A DNA stretch of 36,131 bases, taken from Vicinamibacterales bacterium (GTDB lineage Bacteria > Acidobacteriota > Vicinamibacteria > Vicinamibacterales > UBA2999). Positions 16,093 to 33,043 of the stretch are shown piece after piece. The position numbers and the translations under genes were made by a program. A model generated the notes under the pieces. That model was given only the letters and a program-made list of their open reading frames with translations. It was not told the DNA's origin and did no database searches. The DNA lies in NCBI GenBank assembly GCA_030680175.1, contig JAUXWO010000043.1, positions 1-36,131 on the forward strand, in the 5' to 3' direction. Position 1 is the stretch's first letter; each line of letters starts with the position of its first letter.

Positions 16093-16122
16093 GACGTTCA
16101 GACTCCTTGAAGTGCGCCTTCA

Positions 16123-16329
16123 GCACCTTGGGCACCTTGAGCACCTTGAGCACCTTGGGCACCTTGAGCACCTTGGGCACCTTGGGCACCTTGAGCACCC
16201 TGGGCACCTTGAGCACCTTGGGCACCTTGGGCACCCTGGGCACCTTGAGCACCCTGGGCACCTTGAGCACCCTGGGCACCTTGAGCACCCTGGGCACTCT
16301 GGGCACCCTGAGCACCCCGAGCACCCCTT
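16123..16329. repeat. 23-unit nonamer array (GCACCTTGG / GCACCTTGA)
   Basis: Twenty-three 9-bp units in perfect phase. Units toward 16123 are mostly GCACCTTGG or GCACCTTGA; those toward 16329 shift to GCACCCTGG and GCACCCCGA. The array ends inside the TAA stop codon (16328-16330) of the minus-strand FGE-like gene and lies 30 bp from the start of the SIMPL gene. On the minus strand every unit contains AAGGTG or a near variant, resembling a Shine-Dalgarno sequence, and the true AAGGAG of the SIMPL gene lies just beyond. No stop codons occur in the unit in any frame. Confidence 0.95.
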
Positions 16330-17116
16330 ACTGTCCTTGATCCGTATAGACGACGCGAAACCCGATGCTGTACGCGTAGGAGTCCTCGGGCACCTGGTGG
16401 CGGTGGGCGCAGCGCAGTTGCGACACGTCATGGGTGACCCAGGCGCCCCCGCGGAGCAGGCGCATCGGCCGGACGGGCGGGCCCTCGACGCCGCTGCTGC
16501 GGTAGGCGTCGGGGCGGTACCAGTCGTCGATCCACTCCCAGACGTTGCCGGCCATGTCGTACAGGTCGAAGCCGTTCGGCGCATAGCAGCCGACCGGCCG
16601 CGTGCTGCGATGCCGCTTCAGTGCGGGGTCGGGCAGGAAGTTGGCACGCGATGGATCGATGTCATCGCCCCACGGGTAGCGGCGGCGATCGAGCCCGCCG
16701 CGCGCGGCGCGCTCCCATTCCACCTCGGAGGGCAGCCGGACGGGCCGGCTGATGCGGTGCGTCAGCCACGCGCAGTAGGCGACGGCATCCGCATAGGTGA
16801 CGAGGGTCACCGGGTGATCGGCGCGGTCGCGCGGGGGCTCGCCGCCGCGCCAGGCATAGGGCGCCGCGATCTCGCGGAACGCGGCCTCATGCGCCGGCAG
16901 GACGAAGAGCGGGAGGTCGCGGACGGTCGGGGCCGGGTGGCCGGTCTGGGCCACGAATTCGGCGTACTGGCGGTTGGTGACGGGGTGCACCGACACGTGG
17001 ACCGTGCCGACGTGGCGCTCGTGGGGCGGGCGCTCGTCTTCCTCGCCGTCCTCGGCCCCCATCGTGAAGTTGCCGGCCGGGATCCGGACGAACCGAGGTA
17101 ACAGTTCCTCACGCAT
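16328..17116 (-). CDS. FGE/SUMF1-fold protein without the catalytic cysteines
   Basis: 262 residues of formylglycine-generating-enzyme fold: [20 protein letters not shown] at the start, [12 protein letters not shown] (44-55), [15 protein letters not shown] (127-141), [20 protein letters not shown] (181-195), LLRGGAW (220-226) and a final IGFRVV. In true FGE the catalytic pair lies just after the GGSW motif. Here that segment reads [14 protein letters not shown], with no cysteine at the first position. The protein therefore probably does not make formylglycine; it may resemble the non-heme iron or structural branches of the fold. No signal peptide is seen. GGAGG lies 5 nt before the ATG at 17116. 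It is divergent from the aminotransferase, sharing a palindromic -10. Confidence 0.85.
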
Positions 17117-17128
17117 GGCGGCCTCCGC

Positions 17129-17138
17129 CAGTATACTG
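17129..17138. promoter_or_regulatory. Palindromic, probably bidirectional -10 element CAGTATACTG
   Basis: A perfect 10-bp palindrome centred between two divergent genes. Each strand reads TATACT. On the plus strand TATACT ends 7 nt before the ATG at 17145 (leaderless spacing). On the minus strand it lies 14 nt before the ATG at 17116, leaving room for the GGAGG. No strong -35 is visible for either direction. Confidence 0.55.
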
Positions 17139-17144
17139 CCGGGC

Positions 17145-18299
17145 ATGCGCGTCGAACAGTTTGCCATGGAGCGGATGCAATCCACCTGGGAGAACCTGGT
17201 GGAGTTCAATCTGTCGGAGAGCGGGGTCCGGCCCCTGACCCCACGGGAGCTGCTGGAGGACCCGGCGGCGCTCGAGGGGCTGCTGGACCAGCGCCTGGTC
17301 TACACCCAGTCGAACGGGACGCCGGCGCTGCGCCGCGCGGTCGCCGCGCAGCACGCCGGCGCCACCGAAGATCACGTTCAGATCACGAACGGCGGATCCG
17401 AGGCCAACTACCTCGTGTTGTGGCGGCTCATCGAGCCGGGCGACGAGGTGGTCATGCTCGTGCCCAACTACATGCAGACGTGGGGGCTCGCCCGCGCCTT
17501 CGGCGGCACCGTGCGCGAATGGCGCCTCGAAGAGGATGCCGCGCAGGGACGCTGGACGATCGACGCCGCGGCGCTCGACGCGCTGGTCGGGCCGCGCACG
17601 AAGCTCATCATCCTGTGCACGCCGAACAACCCGACCGGCGCGCGCCTCACCGCCGGCGATCTTGACGCCGTGGCCCGTGCGGCGGCGCGCCACGGCGCCT
17701 GGGTGCTGTCTGACGAGGTGTACCGCGGCGCGGAGCTCGACGGCGTCGAATCGCCCTCGATGTGGGGCCGCTACGACAAGGTGATCGTCACGGCCGGCCT
17801 GTCGAAGGCCTACGGCCTGCCCGGCCTGCGCATCGGCTGGATCGTCGCGCCACCCGAGTTCGTCCAGTCGACCTGGACCTACCACGACTACACGACCATC
17901 GCGCCAGGCGCGCTGAGCGACCTGCTCGCGCGGGCCGCGCTCGAACCCGCGCGCCGCGCGCGGCTGCTCGAGCGCACGCGCGGCATCCTGCGCGAGAACC
18001 TCCCGCTCCTCGAAGGCTGGCTCCACGACCACGCGCCGGGATTCTCGTGGATGCGCCCCGAGGCCGGCGCCATCGTGTACGTGCGGTATCACTACCAGGT
18101 GAACTCGACCGCGCTCGTCACGACGCTGCGGGACACACGCAGCGTGCTGATCGTCCCCGGGGACCACTTCGGGATGGACGGCTACCTGCGGCTCGGCTTC
18201 GGGGAGCCGGGCGACTACCTGCGCGCGGGCCTCGACCGGCTGCACGATCTGCTCGCGACCTATCCCCTCGACGGCCCGGCGCCCCAGGCCCGCCCGTGA
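17145..18299 (+). CDS. PLP-dependent aminotransferase, class I/II
   Basis: 384 residues, fold-type I. Motifs: TNGGSEANYLVLW (81-93) for phosphate and cofactor binding, CTPNNPTGARL (158-168), LSDEVYRG (188-195, Asp190), and the PLP lysine Lys221 in LSKAYGLPGLRIGW. RLGFGE near the C-terminus holds the substrate-carboxylate arginine. Class I/II enzymes transfer amino groups between amino acids and 2-oxo acids; the substrate cannot be told. The ATG at 17145 has no ribosome-binding site but a -10-like TATACT 7 nt upstream. The stop overlaps the GTG of the homoserine dehydrogenase-like gene (GTGA), so the two are one operon and may act in the same amino-acid pathway. Confidence 0.9.
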   Translation: MRVEQFAMERMQSTWENLVEFNLSESGVRPLTPRELLEDPAALEGLLDQRLVYTQSNGTPALRRAVAAQHAGATEDHVQITNGGSEANYLVLWRLIEPGDEVVMLVPNYMQTWGLARAFGGTVREWRLEEDAAQGRWTIDAAALDALVGPRTKLIILCTPNNPTGARLTAGDLDAVARAAARHGAWVLSDEVYRGAELDGVESPSMWGRYDKVIVTAGLSKAYGLPGLRIGWIVAPPEFVQSTWTYHDYTTIAPGALSDLLARAALEPARRARLLERTRGILRENLPLLEGWLHDHAPGFSWMRPEAGAIVYVRYHYQVNSTALVTTLRDTRSVLIVPGDHFGMDGYLRLGFGEPGDYLRAGLDRLHDLLATYPLDGPAPQARP

Positions 18300-19363
18300 G
18301 ACGGCCGGAGCTCGTGCTGGTGCTCATCGGATACGGGCACGTCGGCCGGCGGGTCGTCACACTGCTCGACCAGGTGGCCGATCGCCTCGACTTCACGTAC
18401 CGCATCGGCGGCATCGCCACCCGGCATCACGGGTCGGCGCTCGCGCCGGGCGGTGTCGACGCGGCACGCGCGACGGCGCTCGTCGGCGAGGGGCTGTCGC
18501 TCGACCGGCTCGAGACCGCGCCGCGCGAACGGGACGGCGCCGCGCTCATCAGGCAGGCGCTCGAGACGTTTGCCCCCGAGGCCGCCGACGGCCGCCTCGT
18601 GATCGTCGAGACCACGCTGCTCGATGTGATCGCCGGAGAACCGGCCACGACCCACGTCCGCCTGGCCCTCGAGGGCCGCGCGCATGTGGTCACCGCCAAC
18701 AAGGGCCCCGTCGCCTTCGCGCACCACGCGCTCGAGCGCCTGGCCGAGTCGGTGGATCGGGTGTTCCTCTTCGAGGGCGCCGTCATGGACGGCATCCCCC
18801 TCTTCAACCTCGTGCGCGAGACCATGCCCGCCGTGCGCGTCGAGTCGTTCCGCGGCGTCGTCAACACGACATGCAACTACGTGATCGGCGCCATGGAGGC
18901 CGGGGGCGAGCGGGCCGAGGCCGTGGCCGAGATGCAGGCGCGCGGCATCGCGGAAGCGGATCCCGCCCTCGATCTCGACGGCTGGGACGCGGCGGCCAAG
19001 GCCGCCGCCCTCGCCAACGTGCTGCTCGACGGGCGGCTCACGCCGCGCCAGGTGGAGCGCCAGGGGATCACAGCGCTGACGGGGCGCGAGGTCCGCGAGC
19101 ACCTGCAGCAGGGACGACGGGTGAAGCTCGTGGCGGGGGGGGCACGGGACCCGCGGGGAGGCGCACGCGCGTGGGTGCGCGTCGAGGCGCTCCCGGCCGG
19201 CGATCCCCTGGCCGGGTTGCAGGGCGTCGAGAACGCCATTTACCTGACCACCGACCTGCTCGGCGAGGTCGGCATCGTGCAGCGCACGGGCACGCTGACG
19301 CAGACGGCCTATGCGATCGTGGGCGACCTGGCGCGCATCAGCCAGCGGCTGCGGGAACTCTGA
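18296..19363 (+). CDS. Homoserine dehydrogenase-like NAD(P)-dependent enzyme
   Basis: 355 residues. N-terminal Rossmann fold with LIGYGHVGRRV (10-20); VVTANKGPVA (131-140) with the conserved Lys136; FEGAVMDGIPLF and GVVNTTCNYVI (188-198); EADPALDLDGWDAAAKA (220-236) with catalytic Lys235. These are homoserine dehydrogenase signatures: aspartate-semialdehyde plus NAD(P)H to homoserine in the threonine/methionine pathway. It is short and has no C-terminal ACT domain, so feedback control by threonine is not expected through it. Pairing with an aminotransferase rather than with thrB or thrC is unusual, and a related 2-oxo or semialdehyde substrate is possible. The GTG start overlaps the upstream stop by 4 bp. 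A heptamer array begins directly after the TGA. Confidence 0.85.
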   Translation: MRRPELVLVLIGYGHVGRRVVTLLDQVADRLDFTYRIGGIATRHHGSALAPGGVDAARATALVGEGLSLDRLETAPRERDGAALIRQALETFAPEAADGRLVIVETTLLDVIAGEPATTHVRLALEGRAHVVTANKGPVAFAHHALERLAESVDRVFLFEGAVMDGIPLFNLVRETMPAVRVESFRGVVNTTCNYVIGAMEAGGERAEAVAEMQARGIAEADPALDLDGWDAAAKAAALANVLLDGRLTPRQVERQGITALTGREVREHLQQGRRVKLVAGGARDPRGGARAWVRVEALPAGDPLAGLQGVENAIYLTTDLLGEVGIVQRTGTLTQTAYAIVGDLARISQRLREL

Positions 19364-19433
19364 TTCGCTGGTCGCGGTTCGCGGTTCGCTATTCGCTATT
19401 CGCTATTCGCTGTTCGCCGTTCGCGGTTCGCTC
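19364..19433. repeat. Heptamer tandem array (TTCGCNN), 10 units
   Basis: Ten consecutive 7-bp units (TTCGCTG, GTCGCGG, TTCGCGG, TTCGCTA three times, TTCGCTG, TTCGCCG, TTCGCGG, TTCGCTC) start on the first base after the TGA of the homoserine dehydrogenase-like gene. It is the reverse complement of the GCGAANN units seen at 19812, 24862 and 32946. The 100 bp between it and the glutaredoxin start hold GC-rich sequence with a GGCC-TGC-GGCC dyad and no gene. Confidence 0.95.
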
Positions 19434-19524
19434 GCTCGAGGGGGGGGCGAGCTTCGGCGGGTCTCGCTGTAGCGGCCTGCGGCCTCGGAGGCGGACGCTG
19501 TTCGCGATTCGGGGCTGGTTGCGG

Positions 19525-19530
19525 TACCGT
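19525..19530 (+). promoter_or_regulatory. Weak -10-like TACCGT before the glutaredoxin
   Basis: TACCGT ends 6 nt before the ATG at 19537 and no ribosome-binding site is present. The spacing matches the leaderless arrangement of other plus-strand genes here, but the hexamer is poor. Confidence 0.25.
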
Positions 19531-19536
19531 GTCCGG

Positions 19537-19776
19537 ATGGCGGCCCCGATCATCGTCTTTGCCGGCTCGCATTGACGGCCCTGCGAGCAAGTGAAGGAGT
19601 TTCTTTCACAGGCCGGCCGTCCATTCACCGTCCTCGTCGTTGACGAGAACCTCGACGCGTACGACCAGTTGATCGCCCTCGGGTTCCGCACCGTACCGGT
19701 GACGGTGGCCGGAGACCGGTCGGTCGCCGGCTTCAACCCGGAAGCGCTCGCGACCCTACTGGCGGAGAGCGAGTAG
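19537..19776 (+). CDS. Glutaredoxin-like protein with in-frame TGA at the catalytic Cys (probable selenoprotein)
   Basis: Reading from the ATG at 19537 gives 79 residues with one in-frame TGA (codon 13, 19573-19575). The frame reads MAAPIIVFAGSH-U-RPCEQVKEFLSQ, aligning with the NrdH/glutaredoxin pattern VYTxxxCPYCxxAKEFL so that the TGA replaces the first, nucleophilic cysteine (UxxC). The rest is a complete glutaredoxin: a beta-alpha-beta, the cis-proline segment FRTVPVTVAGD (45-55) and VAGFNPEAL. Glutaredoxin-like UxxC proteins are known among bacterial selenoproteins. A stem-loop directly after the TGA fits a SECIS. Any gene call starting at the GTG at 19591 would miss the active site. 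The alternative is a TGC to TGA nonsense mutation or read error; one base would explain it, but the location and the hairpin argue for selenocysteine. Confidence 0.75.
19573..19615 (+). promoter_or_regulatory. Putative bacterial SECIS element
   Basis: After the TGA the RNA can pair CGGCC (19576-19580) plus U19582 with AGGCCG (19610-19615), one C bulged. After an 8-nt 5' bulge comes an upper stem GUGAAGG (19591-19597) against CUUUCAC (19603-19609): 7 bp including one G-U. The apical loop is AGUUU (19598-19602). Loop size 5, a G among the first two loop bases and 22 nt between UGA and loop all fall within the published bacterial SECIS model (loop 3-14, distance 16-37). No folding program was run. 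Confidence 0.65.
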
Positions 19777-19899
19777 GTGGACGGTGGACGGTGGACAGCT
19801 CTCGGCTCTCGGCGAACGGCGAACGGCGAACGGCGAACGGCGAACGGCGAATAGCGAACGGCGAATAGCGAACGGCGAACCGCGAACGGCGAACAGCGA
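19777..19899. repeat. Heteromeric heptamer array filling the whole intergenic gap
   Basis: Seventeen 7-bp units in strict phase start on the base after the glutaredoxin TAG: GTGGACG twice, GTGGACA, GCTCTCG twice, then GCGAACG and variants (GCGAATA, GCGAACC, GCGAACA). The eighteenth unit is GCGAATG, whose last three bases are the ATG of the CoA-transferase gene. There is thus no other sequence between stop and start. The same block order recurs at 32911-33043. Confidence 0.95.
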
Positions 19900-21099
19900 A
19901 TGATCCCCCCCACCGGCCCGCTCGCGGGCCTCACCGTCCTCGACCTCACGCGCGTGCTGTCGGGTCCCTACTGCACGATGACGCTCGCGGACCTCGGCGC
20001 GCGCGTCATCAAGGTCGAGCACCCGTCGCGGGGCGACGACACGCGGGGCTGGGGGCCGCCGTTTCTCGGGAGCGAGAGCGCCTACTTCCTGAGCGTCAAC
20101 CGCAACAAGGAAAGCGTCACGCTCGACTTCAAGACCGCGGAGGGCCGCGCGATCCTCGATCAGCTCATCGCGCGCGCCGACGTGCTCGTCGAGAACTTCC
20201 GCCCCGGCACGCTGGCGGATCTGGGGTACGACGCGGCGACGCTGTGCGACCGCCACCCGCGGCTGATCTACTGCGCCATCTCCGGCTTCGGCCAGACGGG
20301 CCCGCGCCGCGAGGAGCCGGGCTACGACGCGGTGATGCAGGCCGAGGGCGGCCTGATGAGCGTGACCGGCGATCAGTCGGGGCCGCCCTTCCGCCTCGGC
20401 GTCGCCATCGCCGACATCGTCTCCGGCCTGTGGGCCGCGCAGGGGGTGATGGCGGCGATCATCGCGCGCGAGCGGACGGGCCGCGGCCAGATCGTGGACG
20501 TCGGGATGCTCGACGCCACGGCGTCGCTCCTCACCTACCAGGCCGCGATCTACTTCGCGACGGGCCAGGCGCCCACGCGCCTCGGCAACCGGCACCCGAC
20601 GATCGTGCCGTACGAAGCCTTCCCCACGGCCGATGGCGATCTGGTCGTCGCGGTGGGGAACGATGCCATCTGGCGGCGCTTCTGCGAGGTGGCGGGGATG
20701 GCGGCCCTGGCCGACGATCCCCGGTTTGCCACCAACCGCGACCGCGTCGCGCACTACGACGCCTTGAAGCCGGTGCTCGACGGGGTGTTCGGCCGGCGGT
20801 CGCGTCAGGCCTGGATCGACGTGCTCACGCCGGCGGGCGTCCCGTGCGGGTCGGTCCGGGACATCGCGGAGGTGTTCGGCGACCCGCAGATCGCGGACCG
20901 CGAGATGGTGGTGGCGCTGCCGCACCCGACGATCGGCGAGGTGCGCGTCACCGGAGTGCCGGTCAAGCTCTCGGCCACGCCCGGCGCGGTGCGGACGGCG
21001 CCGCCCACCCTGGGACAGCACACCGAGGCGGTCCTCGGCGAACTCGGCTACACGACGGAGGCGATCGCGGGACTGCGGGCCACGGGGACCATCCGGTGA
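19900..21099 (+). CDS. Class III CoA-transferase (CaiB/BaiF family)
   Basis: 399 residues, the usual family length. Motifs: GPLAGLTVLDLTRVLSGPYC at the start, LGARVIKVEHPSRGDD (32-47), VNRNKESVTLDFKT (66-79), VENFRPGTLADLG (97-109), ISGFGQTGP (127-135) and GYDAVMQAEGGLMSVTG (141-157). Asp172 in RLGVAIADIVSG aligns with the catalytic Asp169 of formyl-CoA transferase. These enzymes move CoA between carboxylic acids through acyl-aspartyl intermediates; the acids cannot be told. The ATG at 19900 is the last three bases of a heptamer unit, so the array is its 5' untranslated region if one exists; no ribosome-binding site. Confidence 0.92.
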   Translation: MIPPTGPLAGLTVLDLTRVLSGPYCTMTLADLGARVIKVEHPSRGDDTRGWGPPFLGSESAYFLSVNRNKESVTLDFKTAEGRAILDQLIARADVLVENFRPGTLADLGYDAATLCDRHPRLIYCAISGFGQTGPRREEPGYDAVMQAEGGLMSVTGDQSGPPFRLGVAIADIVSGLWAAQGVMAAIIARERTGRGQIVDVGMLDATASLLTYQAAIYFATGQAPTRLGNRHPTIVPYEAFPTADGDLVVAVGNDAIWRRFCEVAGMAALADDPRFATNRDRVAHYDALKPVLDGVFGRRSRQAWIDVLTPAGVPCGSVRDIAEVFGDPQIADREMVVALPHPTIGEVRVTGVPVKLSATPGAVRTAPPTLGQHTEAVLGELGYTTEAIAGLRATGTIR

Positions 21100-22532: not shown

Positions 22533-24644
22533 CTAGGCGAGGCGTTCGACGAAGCTGGTGTCGATGCCCTCGCGCTTGAGCTGCGCCAGCAGGCCCGTCC
22601 GATCGGCGGCCTTGCGGTAGGCCTCGCGGACATCGACCGCACCGCTCTGGACAAAGGCGACGAGGGCGTCGTTGAGCGGCACCATCCCGTGCTTGCGGCC
22701 GCTGTCGATCGCGCGGGGGAGCTGCGCGATCTGCCCTTCCGCCAGGAGGCCCGCGACGGCCGACGTGCTGAGCAGCAACTCACGCGCGGCCAGCCGGCCG
22801 CCGCCGGTCTTGCGCAGGAGCACCTGCGACACCGCGCCTCGCAGTGTCTCGGCCAGCGCCGCCTGCACCGACCCACGGCGCTCGACCGCCACCATGTCCA
22901 CCAGCCGCTCGATCGCGGCGGTCGTGGCGCTCGCCGTCACCGACACCACGACCAGCAGCCCGGATCCAGCCGCGTCGAGTGCGACCTGCAGGACGTCGGG
23001 GGACCGCAGGTCCTCGATGACCAGCACGTCCGGGTTCTCGCGCAGCGCCGCGCGCGCCGCCGCCACCACCTCGTCGCCGTGCCCGCGGACTTCGCGCTGG
23101 CTGATGAGCGAGTGCCGGTGCTCGTGCACCAGGCGAATCTGGCGCTCGAGCGTGATCACGTAGTCGGCGCGCTGGCGATTGACGAGATCGACCATCGCCG
23201 CCACCAGCGTGGACTTGCCGCTGCCGCGCGGTCCCGACACGAGGACGAGCCCTTCGGGTTCGGTGGCCAGCGCCTGGATCTCGCGTGAGAGCCCCAGCTG
23301 CTCGGCCGACGCCGCGCGCGCCGAGATCATCCGCAGCAGCACCCCCGGCCCGCGATGGTCGCGGAAGGTCGTGCAGCGCAGCCGGCCGATGTCCGCGAGG
23401 TCCACGATCCACTCGGTGATCACCCCGCGCCGCACCCCGTCCGACGATCCCTCCGGCAGGATCTCCAGCACCGCCGCTTCCACATCGTCGCTCGTCAGCA
23501 CCGGCTCGCCCGCCAGCAGAAGGACTTCGCCATCCACGCGGAGCGCCGGCGGGGACTGCGACGTGAGATAGAGCGCGGTGGCGCCGCGCGTGGCCGTCAG
23601 CCGCAGCAGGCGCTCGAGTCCTCCGGGGCGCGACGTGAGCCGCGGTCCGGCGTCCGGCCGCGCCACGGCACGGATCGGCACCACCGTCGGCGGCGCAAAG
23701 TAGTCGCGCGGCGCCTCAGCCACCTCGGGGATCTCGGCCGCCTCGGGCACGTCGAGCGCCGCGGGCACGTCGGCTGCCGCGGGCGCCACGGGCGCCACGG
23801 GCGCCGCGGCAACCTCAGGCACCACGGGCGCCTGGGGCACGTCGAGCACCTCGGCAACCTCGAGCACCTCGGCCACCGCAGCCGTCTCGGGCACCGCAGC
23901 CGTCTCGAGCTCCGCGGCCATCTCCAGCGCGGCAGCCATCTCGAGCGCGGCGGCCATCTCGGCCATCTCGGTCACCTCGGGCACCTCGAGCATCTCGGGC
24001 ACCTCGAGGACCTCGGCCATCTCCGGCACGTTGGCCACCTCGGGCACGTCGAGCAGCGCGGCAACCTCGGGGAGGTCGGCTACCTCGGCCACCTCGGGGA
24101 GGTCGGCCATCTCGGGCAGCTCGGCCACTTCGGGCAGCTCGGGCAGGTCGGCCACCTGGGGCAGGTCGGCCACCTGGGGCACCTCGGCCACTTCGGCCAC
24201 TTCGGCCACCTCGGCCACTTCGGGCAACTCGGGCAGGTCGGCCACCTGCGGCACCTCGGCCGCCTGGGGCACCTCGGCCCCCTCGGACCTGACGGACCTG
24301 ACGGCCCCCTCGGACCTGACGGGCTTCATCCGCCGGTGGCGCCGGATCTCGATCCAGATGTCGTTGCCGCCGCGCGCCGCCACGACCGTGAACCGGTCGC
24401 CGCCCATGGCCGGCACGCCCTCGAGTTCGTGTTCGATCGCCCCGAACTCCTGGAGCGCGCGCTGTGTGTCGGCCGGCAGCAGCTGGCCGATCATGCCCTC
24501 CATGGCGCCGAGATTCAGGGCATGGGTCGACAGCTCCAGCGGCCGGTCGGACGCCACGACGTAGGGCCGTTCGCCGACGTGCATGACGAGCGCGTCGCCG
24601 TCGGCACGGACGATGGCGGTGAGGAGGGAATCAACGAGCGCCAT
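22533..24644 (-). CDS. PilT/GspE-family secretion ATPase with long Ala/Glu/Val/Pro repeat linker
   Basis: 703 residues. Residues 1-105 are an alpha/beta domain that looks like a PilT N-terminal module. Residues 123-311 are low complexity with triplets of the type EVA, EVP and DLP. Residues 340-703 are a second N2 domain and a RecA-like core: Walker A GPRGSGKST (471-479), Asp box YVITLERQIRLVHEHRHSL (495-513), Walker B ENPDVLVIEDL (536-546). In the His box the histidine of PilT (TLHTSSA) is replaced (SVTASAT, about 568-574). PilT drives type IV pilus retraction; this looks like a divergent PilT/PilU-like paralogue, possibly regulatory or weakly active. The linker DNA is a 9-bp repeat. A 10-bp inverted repeat lies just upstream of the ATG at 24644. 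Confidence 0.8.
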   Translation of the reverse strand: MALVDSLLTAIVRADGDALVMHVGERPYVVASDRPLELSTHALNLGAMEGMIGQLLPADTQRALQEFGAIEHELEGVPAMGGDRFTVVAARGGNDIWIEIRRHRRMKPVRSEGAVRSVRSEGAEVPQAAEVPQVADLPELPEVAEVAEVAEVAEVPQVADLPQVADLPELPEVAELPEMADLPEVAEVADLPEVAALLDVPEVANVPEMAEVLEVPEMLEVPEVTEMAEMAAALEMAAALEMAAELETAAVPETAAVAEVLEVAEVLDVPQAPVVPEVAAAPVAPVAPAAADVPAALDVPEAAEIPEVAEAPRDYFAPPTVVPIRAVARPDAGPRLTSRPGGLERLLRLTATRGATALYLTSQSPPALRVDGEVLLLAGEPVLTSDDVEAAVLEILPEGSSDGVRRGVITEWIVDLADIGRLRCTTFRDHRGPGVLLRMISARAASAEQLGLSREIQALATEPEGLVLVSGPRGSGKSTLVAAMVDLVNRQRADYVITLERQIRLVHEHRHSLISQREVRGHGDEVVAAARAALRENPDVLVIEDLRSPDVLQVALDAAGSGLLVVVSVTASATTAAIERLVDMVAVERRGSVQAALAETLRGAVSQVLLRKTGGGRLAARELLLSTSAVAGLLAEGQIAQLPRAIDSGRKHGMVPLNDALVAFVQSGAVDVREAYRKAADRTGLLAQLKREGIDTSFVERLA
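23712..24278 (-). repeat. Coding 9-bp repeat (GCCACCTCG-type) in the ATPase linker
   Basis: On the plus strand the region is built of degenerate nonamers such as GGCCACCTC, GGGCACCTC and GGGCAGGTC, kept in reading frame so each unit gives a triplet of an acidic residue, Val/Leu/Met and Ala/Pro. About 63 units fit. The unit closely resembles the non-coding GCACCTTGG array at 16123-16329. Confidence 0.8.
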
Positions 24645-24861: not shown

Positions 24862-24931
24862 GCGAACAGCGAACGGCGAACAGCGAACGGCGAACGGCGA
24901 ACGGCGAACGGCGAACAGCGAACTACGAACG
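24862..24931. repeat. Heptamer array (GCGAACG/GCGAACA) running into the menG-like gene
   Basis: Ten 7-bp units from 24862. The last two, GCGAACT and ACGAACG, contain the stop codon (24923-24925) and the last two codons of the methyltransferase gene on the minus strand, so the array reaches into the coding sequence. Confidence 0.9.
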
Positions 24932-25663
24932 GCGCACTGACGTGACTCCGACGTGCAGCGACATCAACCCGCCCAGCAGCGGCGTGATCTCGACCTCGGC
25001 GAAGCCGTTGGCGCGCAGGATCGAGGCGACGTCCTCGGCGCCGGGGTAGCGGCGCAGCGACGCCGGGATGTAGCGATACGTGTCGGGATCGCCATGCAGC
25101 GCCCAGCCGAGCACGCCGCCGGTGACGTCGAGGTAGGCGAGGTAGGCCGCGCGAATCACCCGCGAGTCGGGACGATTGAAGTCCAGCGACAGGAGCCGGC
25201 CGCCTGGACGGAGCACCCGCGCGATCTCGGCGCAGGCCGCGTCCAGCGCCGGCACGTTTCGCAGGCCGTACCCCGTCGTGACCACATCGAAGGCGCCGTC
25301 CTCGAACGGGAGCGCCATCATGTCGCCCGCCAGGAACGCCGGCCGGGCGCCGGACGCCGGCGTGGCCTTCGCCCGCGCCAGCGTGATCATGCGCGGCACG
25401 AGATCGAGTCCGGTCACGCGGGCGCCGTGCGCGGCGGCGAGATACGCGAGGTCGCCCGTGCCCGTTGCCAGGTCGAGCACGCGCGCGCCCTCGAGCGGCG
25501 CGGCGCGATCCACGAGCGTGCGCTTCCAGCGCCGGTCCTGCCCGTACGACAGCAGCCGCGTGATCAGGTCATAGCGATCGGCGATGGTCGTGAAGAGGCG
25601 ACGGACATGACGCCGTTTGGCGTCGGGCGTGTCGAAGGCACGGGCGAGCGGCGCGGGCTCCAC
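24923..25663 (-). CDS. MenG/UbiE-family quinone C-methyltransferase
   Basis: 246 residues. FTTIADRYDLITRLLSYGQD (24-43) is the family's N-terminal signature; VLDLATGTGDLA (62-73) is SAM motif I; GDMMALPFEDGAFDVVTTGY and GLRNVPALDAACAEIARVLR follow in family order, with LLSLDFNRP in place of the usual LEFS.P. The family methylates demethylmenaquinone or the ubiquinone precursor with SAM. No other quinone gene is near, so the quinone is inferred only. The GTG at 25663 lies 9 bp after the feoB membrane-part stop, so it is probably the last gene of the feo operon. Its 3' end is made of heptamer repeat sequence. Confidence 0.85.
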   Translation of the reverse strand: MEPAPLARAFDTPDAKRRHVRRLFTTIADRYDLITRLLSYGQDRRWKRTLVDRAAPLEGARVLDLATGTGDLAYLAAAHGARVTGLDLVPRMITLARAKATPASGARPAFLAGDMMALPFEDGAFDVVTTGYGLRNVPALDAACAEIARVLRPGGRLLSLDFNRPDSRVIRAAYLAYLDVTGGVLGWALHGDPDTYRYIPASLRRYPGAEDVASILRANGFAEVEITPLLGGLMSLHVGVTSVRRS

Positions 25664-32910: not shown

Positions 32911-33043
32911 GTGGACGGTGGACGGTGGACGGTGGAAAGCTCTCAGCGAACGGCGAACGGCTTTCGGCTCTCGGCGAACGGCGAACGGCGAACGGCGAAC
33001 GGCGAACGGCGAACGGCGAACGGCGAATAGCGAATAGCGATAA
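32911..33043. repeat. Heteromeric heptamer array between divergent genes, 19 units
   Basis: In strict phase: GTGGACG three times, GTGGAAA, GCTCTCA, GCGAACG twice, GCTTTCG, GCTCTCG, GCGAACG seven times, GCGAATA twice, GCGATAA. It fills nearly all of the space between the HAD gene start and the QueC-like gene start, and its last unit supplies the -10-like GATAAT of the latter. The order of unit types repeats that at 19777-19899. Confidence 0.95.

Follow-up and report, generated by a model that had tools for sequence, protein, structure and literature searches.

A predicted selenocysteine-containing redoxin of the glutaredoxin/NrdH type, with a conserved SECIS-like hairpin, in the Vicinamibacterales

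Among the described systems closest to the one considered here is cGrx1 of Clostridium oremlandii, a redoxin whose partner is MsrA. Glutaredoxins with selenocysteine (Sec, U) are an established kind of selenoprotein: Grx (PF00462, UxxC) is listed in the selenoproteome tables contained in excerpts of PMC13188914 and PMC9312934, ten Sargasso Sea Grx selenoprotein sequences are given in the excerpt of PMC1088965, and the excerpt of PMC1794560 holds Grx selenoprotein entries for Geobacter, Alkaliphilus, and Moorella. cGrx1 itself, according to the excerpt of PMC7642778, is natively a selenoprotein, with the motif U(or C)PXC, and the solved protein (PDB 7c10, 7c12) has Cys for Sec. As to the Acidobacteria, 4 selenoproteins of 3 families are counted in the excerpt of PMC1794560, and the excerpt of PMC12013277 describes a test on an Acidobacteriota genome in which 3 selenoproteins are known. 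In the main text of PMC13188914 there is no mention of NrdH, Acidobacteri, or Vicinamibacter, and among the open-licence papers listed by literature searches none was, by title and start of abstract, on an order-wide group of Sec-containing NrdH/glutaredoxin proteins in Vicinamibacter or Acidobacteriota. Within that literature, therefore, the gene described here, found in a window of 36,131 nucleotides from a Vicinamibacterales bacterium (the whole stretch of DNA that was analysed), is a new, undescribed subgroup of the established UxxC selenoprotein glutaredoxins. It shares with the Grx of the published lists the Pfam family and the UxxC motif, and with cGrx1 the placement of Sec at the first motif position; in the excerpted lists no order-wide group is named, a distinction that is drawn from descriptions, with sequences compared through the PDB only.

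The gene (Table 1) is a frame of 79 codons, closed by a TAG stop, that reads MAAPIIVFAGSH-TGA-RPCEQVKEFLSQAGRPFTVLVVDENLDAYDQLIALGFRTVPVTVAGDRSVAGFNPEALATLLAESE*. The preliminary description, made from the letters of the DNA, had placed one TGA in this frame, exactly on the first Cys of a glutaredoxin CxxC, with flanks that align with the family, and translation bears this out: the single TGA is codon 13, the motif is U13-R-P-C16 (U-x-A/S/T-C in relatives, compared with U(or C)PXC in cGrx1), and, with C written for U, PF00462 Glutaredoxin is the top Pfam family (residues 5-62, E 6.1e-10, 39.6 bits against a cut-off of 22.9). In an alignment of 19 rows, positions 13, 16, and P54, the Pro of a TVP motif, are invariant. 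Promoters and terminators were sought between positions 19300 and 20000, and neither was found.

Table 1. Positions in the window of the redoxin gene, its selenocysteine-related elements, and its neighbours.
Feature	Position	Strand	Evidence or detail
Sec-containing glutaredoxin/NrdH-like redoxin gene (predicted)	19537..19776	+	Translation with TGA as U, PF00462, AlphaFold2 fold, orthologues
TGA, predicted U13, nucleophilic position of UxxC	19573..19575	+	Site kept in 41/41 TGA-bearing order matches
TGC, Cys16, second residue of UxxC	19582..19584	+	Invariant column, alignment of 19 rows
bSECIS-like hairpin	19591..19609	+	7-bp stem, 19591-19597 / 19603-19609
Hairpin loop	closing pair 19598-19602, apical GTT 19599-19601	+	22-23 nt from TGA to loop
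CoA-transferase family III	19900..21099	+	PF02515, E 3.8e-142
Homoserine dehydrogenase frame	17762..19363	+	PF00742, E 5e-42; last codon TGA, an ordinary stop
Class I/II aminotransferase	16974..18299	+	PF00155, E 9.6e-45

The label of glutaredoxin given to the protein at the outset stands as to PF00462 membership, and needs qualification beyond that, as the family scores place the protein nearer the NrdH-type redoxins than glutaredoxin 3. Its best NCBIfam score is to NrdH TIGR02194 (56.9 bits, E 1.8e-15), compared with 24.5 bits for the glutaredoxin 3 model, and group-wide a YruB-type glutaredoxin model (best E 1.3e-18) and NrdH (2.2e-17) each match 19 of 19 members. Curated membership in the NrdH family was rejected, the cut-off being 85.75 bits, and in fact none of the 13 NCBIfam models listed for the protein is matched above its cut-off. 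These include the models of the UXX-star selenoproteins, which are likewise glutaredoxin-like and Sec-containing: NF041212 (26.4 bits, cut-off 66), NF041211 (21.3, cut-off 100), NF047338 (20.6, cut-off 97), and NF041114 (14.1, cut-off 72), so that curated UXX-star membership was rejected as well. The window redoxin keeps its second Cys, whereas the motifs of UXX-star families 1 and 2 are UxxT and GxGU, respectively, in the excerpt of PMC13188914. The AlphaFold2 model, built with Cys at position 13, has a glutaredoxin fold (mean pLDDT 88.2; strands 5-9, 30-34, 55-58, and 61-64, helices 14-26, 39-47, and 68-77), in which the C/U-x-x-C motif starts just ahead of helix 1. Foldseek matches it to 62 PDB chains at E <= 0.001; among the best 50 of these 62, the Archaeoglobus glutaredoxin 3ic4 comes first by E-value, followed by the NrdH-redoxins 1h75 and 4fiw (TM-scores 0.82/0.85 and 0.83/0.86), which have Cys where the window redoxin has Sec. 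The highest TM-score among the matches listed belongs to cGrx1 (7c10_A, 0.89/0.93, rmsd 1.0), whose fold is thus very similar to the predicted one but whose identity to the window protein is 32%.

From the in-frame UGA, the genes for the Sec machinery, the conservation of hairpin and site, and the predicted fold, all established at the level of sequence, we infer a small thiol-selenol redoxin with hairpin-directed Sec insertion and a redox cycle, an explanation that, taken as a whole, we regard as very probable. SelB carrying Sec-tRNA(Sec) would bind the hairpin that begins 15 nt after the UGA and insert Sec as residue 13. Its selenolate, immediately ahead of helix 1, would attack an oxidised group of the target, such as a disulfide; the mixed selenenylsulfide would be resolved by Cys16, and the redoxin would then be re-reduced by an electron donor. 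As to the donor, we lean toward one of the thioredoxin-reductase type rather than glutathione, because NrdH scores best and because glutathione synthetase, judged by the single family PF02955, has no match in the genome of origin, while it is detected in 9 of 14 control genomes, Escherichia coli included. The competing view, which concerns the donor step alone, is that the selenoprotein acts as a classical glutathione-dependent glutaredoxin and is not NrdH-like. It draws on PF00462 being the top Pfam family and on the selenoprotein cGrx1 being the best match in fold by TM-score among the matches listed, and it has to contend with the NrdH and glutaredoxin 3 scores of the protein and with the missing PF02955 match; we consider it unlikely, if still a serious candidate. 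The classical partner of NrdH is the class Ib ribonucleotide reductase. Since PF08343, which represents this enzyme and is detected in E. coli, Bacillus subtilis, and Lactococcus lactis, has no match in the genome of origin, the textbook partner seems to be absent, and a thioredoxin-reductase-dependent redoxin of this kind would have to serve another target.

The distribution of the TGA among relatives speaks to whether the gene is alive. A protein search of 99 genomes returns 30 matches in 26 genomes, 20 of them (from 19 of the 99 genomes) with exactly one TGA, each time at the Sec codon; the other ten are one close copy with CGA (L018) and nine weaker ones (E 1.4e-7 to 5.5e-4). Searched with a profile, the order (162 genomes, E <= 1e-12) yields 43 matches in 39 genomes, of which 41, from 38 genomes, have one TGA, and inspection places it at the Sec site in every one of the 41. 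The two matches without TGA are L018 and a weaker Cys-type paralogue (L036; 57.1 bits, CRFC) on contig C5 of genome G062, which also has a TGA copy. Among the 40 order matches above 85 bits, TGA is found in 39, CGA in one, and Cys in none, and the question posed early on, of whether relatives would have TGA or TGC at this site, is thus settled for the close copies in favour of TGA. The view that this is an ordinary Cys glutaredoxin, dead through a nonsense mutation or given a wrong base by a sequencing error, could point to L018, from genome G074, in which CGA at the Sec codon is followed by a later frame break, and to a more distant locus, L050, in which a TAG is present besides the TGA. L018 indeed looks decayed, or else reflects an assembly error; its hairpin is intact, and its genome still has a tRNA-Sec (56.9 bits) and SelB (356 bits). 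The recurrence of this TGA in 41 of the 43 matches from the order, a frame conserved on both sides of it, and a hairpin maintained with rare codons make such a mutation or error very improbable as an explanation of the gene. As far as such sequence evidence reaches, the gene encodes a selenoprotein, with Sec predicted at position 13, and is not the result of a nonsense mutation.

Outside the order, 37 of 396 genomes of a phylum sample match at E <= 1e-9, and 24 further loci were read, ten with TGA at the site (L048, L050, L051, L063, L064, and L067, and four copies of a family, f24: L052, L053, L056, and L059) and 14 with Cys. Within f24 the Sec copies have QPGUPPC and the Cys copy (L049) QPGCPPC. 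When named genomes were scanned with the window protein, seven distant loci were returned, at 35-48% identity. Two loci of the order, L110 and L113 (genomes G472 and G469), represent a more distant Sec-redoxin paralogue, with the motif QPGUMFC (60.6 and 64.9 bits).

The codons downstream of the TGA form a hairpin of 19 nt, beginning 15 nt 3' of it, with the pattern GTGARRG-NGTNN-CTYTCRC. The same register is found in 39 of the 41 inspected order copies, the exceptions being L110 and L113, where 3 of 7 positions pair, and the stem is intact, with 7/7 pairs, in all 38 tallied copies and in one more (L094) considered separately, i.e., in 39/39 copies in register. In the 38 copies the 5' arm is GTGAAAG (26), GTGAAGG (10), or GTGAGGG (2), the 3' arm is CTTTCAC (36), CTCTCGC (1), or CTCTCAC (1), and GT occupies loop positions 2-3 throughout. 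The codons involved are unusual: Leu is CTT in 36/38 and Ser is TCA in 37/38 copies, whereas in three neighbour genes both are rare, CTT accounting for 1 of the 129 Leu codons and TCA for 1 of the 45 Ser codons. When synonymous codons are redrawn at neighbour usage, an equally stable core appears in 0 of 4000 trials and a 7-bp helix in 46 of 20000. The 56-nt stretch has an MFE of -23.7 kcal/mol (z -3.5), and the isolated 19-nt core only -6.8 kcal/mol. The bSECIS model, in the excerpt of PMC13188914, calls for a loop of 3-9 nt, a stem of 4-16 bp, an MFE <= -7.5, a G in the first two loop positions, and 16-37 nt from UGA to loop, and the hairpin fits this excerpted model with a loop of 3-5 nt, a stem of 7-8 bp, GU, and 22-23 nt.

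Covariation is slight in the first 20 order copies alone, with 24 of 500 shuffles as good, because the hairpin hardly varies. Addition of the six phylum loci with TGA and a hairpin in register (the ten listed above less the f24 copies, which were excluded for having another hairpin) gives 26 aligned sequences. In these, 97.3% of cells pair, compared with 93.9% in shuffles (0/500 as high), three pairs vary on both sides (1/500 shuffles as many), the covariation score is 0.205 versus 0.135 (0/500), and slid registers reach at most 61.5% pairing; 6 cells are changed on both sides versus 0.7 in shuffles (0/500), a count that is flattered, as the six additions had been viewed before being chosen. 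The loop-closing pair (RNAalifold) is A-U in 14 of the 26, C-G in 8, and unpaired in 4; among the 38 order copies it is missing in 7, all with A at this place, and a C there is opposite G in 9/9. As a negative control, the 14 Cys homologues of the phylum pair at 1 to 3 of the 7 positions. In the common register the four f24 Sec copies pair at 4 or 5 of the 7, and they have a different, later hairpin (CCTCTC-GGA-GAGAGG, CCTTTC-GGA-GAAAGG, or CCTCTC-GGC-GAGAGG), an indication that the SECIS has changed its place within a single protein family. In the genome of origin the hairpin motif occurs once at <=2 mismatches (backward control 0), and with no second site at this tolerance it reveals no further selenoproteins.

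The hairpin also bears on whether the TGA is a true stop, with a separate small protein encoded behind it. The list of open reading frames holds, as anticipated in the preliminary description, a frame of 61 amino acids from the GTG at 19591 to 19776, which a gene caller could well report, along with a frame of 234 amino acids (18871-19575) that terminates at the redoxin's TGA. Such a 61-residue product would, however, lack strand 1 and the active site, its GTG is the first codon of the hairpin and so belongs to it, and the part ahead of the TGA shows conservation at the protein level, with V7 and G10 kept in >=90% of the 19 aligned rows. We give a separate protein of this kind very little credence.

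Decoding of UGA as Sec requires a dedicated machinery, whose presence in the genome of origin (4.98 Mb, 143 contigs, computed to be 100% complete) was proposed as a check from the beginning, and all four components are found there above their cut-offs: tRNA-Sec (selC; C65:121580-121670, 64.8 bits, cut-off 47), which ARAGORN reports as tRNA-SeC with the anticodon TCA, SelB (C92:3142-4224, 294.2 bits, cut-off 242.25), SelA (C82:20359-21708, 517.2 bits, cut-off 267.9), and SelD (C94:29449-30366, 272.7 bits, cut-off 125). Another 13 matches of the tRNA-Sec search in this genome are below the cut-off, the next two of them being tRNA-Ser by ARAGORN. Together with the TGA, and not TGC, in relatives and the conserved hairpin, the machinery supports the initial reading of the gene as a selenoprotein. 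That the TGA is read as some other amino acid, by general reassignment or by a suppressor tRNA, is conceivable in that any UGA-decoding tRNA could in principle do so, but with tRNA-Sec, SelA, SelB, and SelD encoded, a SECIS-like hairpin after the TGA, Cys at the site in phylum homologues, and TGA serving as an ordinary stop in the homoserine dehydrogenase frame just upstream, we assign it next to no probability.

The Sec machinery is common in the order. In 20 genomes, drafts drawn from the 99 relatives, SelA is over its cut-off in 17 and SelD in 18, and SelB is below its cut-off in the draft genomes G038, G063, and G096. A control for Sec use in the lineage comes from SelD itself, as one in-frame TGA is present in 17 of these 18 SelD matches, located at CAG-U-ASK in the two sequences read. 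The SelD of the genome of origin is encoded in a frame of 753 residues with no TGA and with a long N-terminal part, which may resemble an NADH dehydrogenase. Across the 99 genomes, presence of the redoxin gene is not significantly associated with tRNA-Sec, neither at 56 bits or more (16/19 vs. 54/80, p = 0.17), a threshold of our own choice, adopted because many matches of 49-53 bits resembled tRNA-Ser, nor at the curated cut-off (17/19 vs. 60/80, p = 0.23).

If the redoxin is indeed a selenoprotein, the subgroup may be held to Sec across the order, with a hairpin so fixed that the protein is shaped by it, a generalization to which we give an even chance. With TGA in 39 of the 40 close copies, a decayed CGA in one, and Cys in none, it seems that a lineage drops the gene instead of exchanging Sec for Cys. 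Residues 21-22 are EF, AW, EL, or AL, and as every C at the loop-closing place has a G opposite it, RNA pairing would link two neighbouring amino acids. A gene caller that treats TGA as a stop would retain at best the inactive 61-residue stub, and with scores under all 13 NCBIfam cut-offs as well, the family, present in 38 of 162 genomes of the order, is probably mis-annotated. At the same time, the 39 copies with one hairpin, the Cys homologues without it, and the Sec homologues with another hairpin make up a natural series well suited to studying the constraints that a SECIS places on a protein and the reasons for the retention of Sec.

The redoxin gene is located between the genes for the aminotransferase and homoserine dehydrogenase, the true start of the latter being probably inside the frame given in Table 1, and the gene for the family III CoA-transferase. 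By tblastn against 32 loci (21 from the order, the window's own included, and 11 from the phylum; loci of up to about 3 kb, some ended by the contig), the CoA-transferase is detected in 14 and homoserine dehydrogenase or the aminotransferase in 20, all of them from the order, so that most copies occupy one conserved place. The redoxin is oriented as in the window in L010, L023, and L035, and oppositely in most of the others that have these neighbours. In L013, L015, L021, L022, and L026 the homoserine dehydrogenase match is limited to the part that overlaps the aminotransferase, and the enzyme is therefore probably absent there. Repeats are also a feature of the window. Arrays of heptamers (CGGCGAA / GCGAACG and the complement) are found at 19364-19432, 19810-19900, 24862-24934, and 32946-33027, the first two of which flank the redoxin gene, one on each side. 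Long repeats of 9, 18, 27, and 90 bases extend over 23710-24286, within a reading frame that has a match to the Pfam collagen repeat, and an 18-base repeat is present in about 12 copies at 16117-16326.
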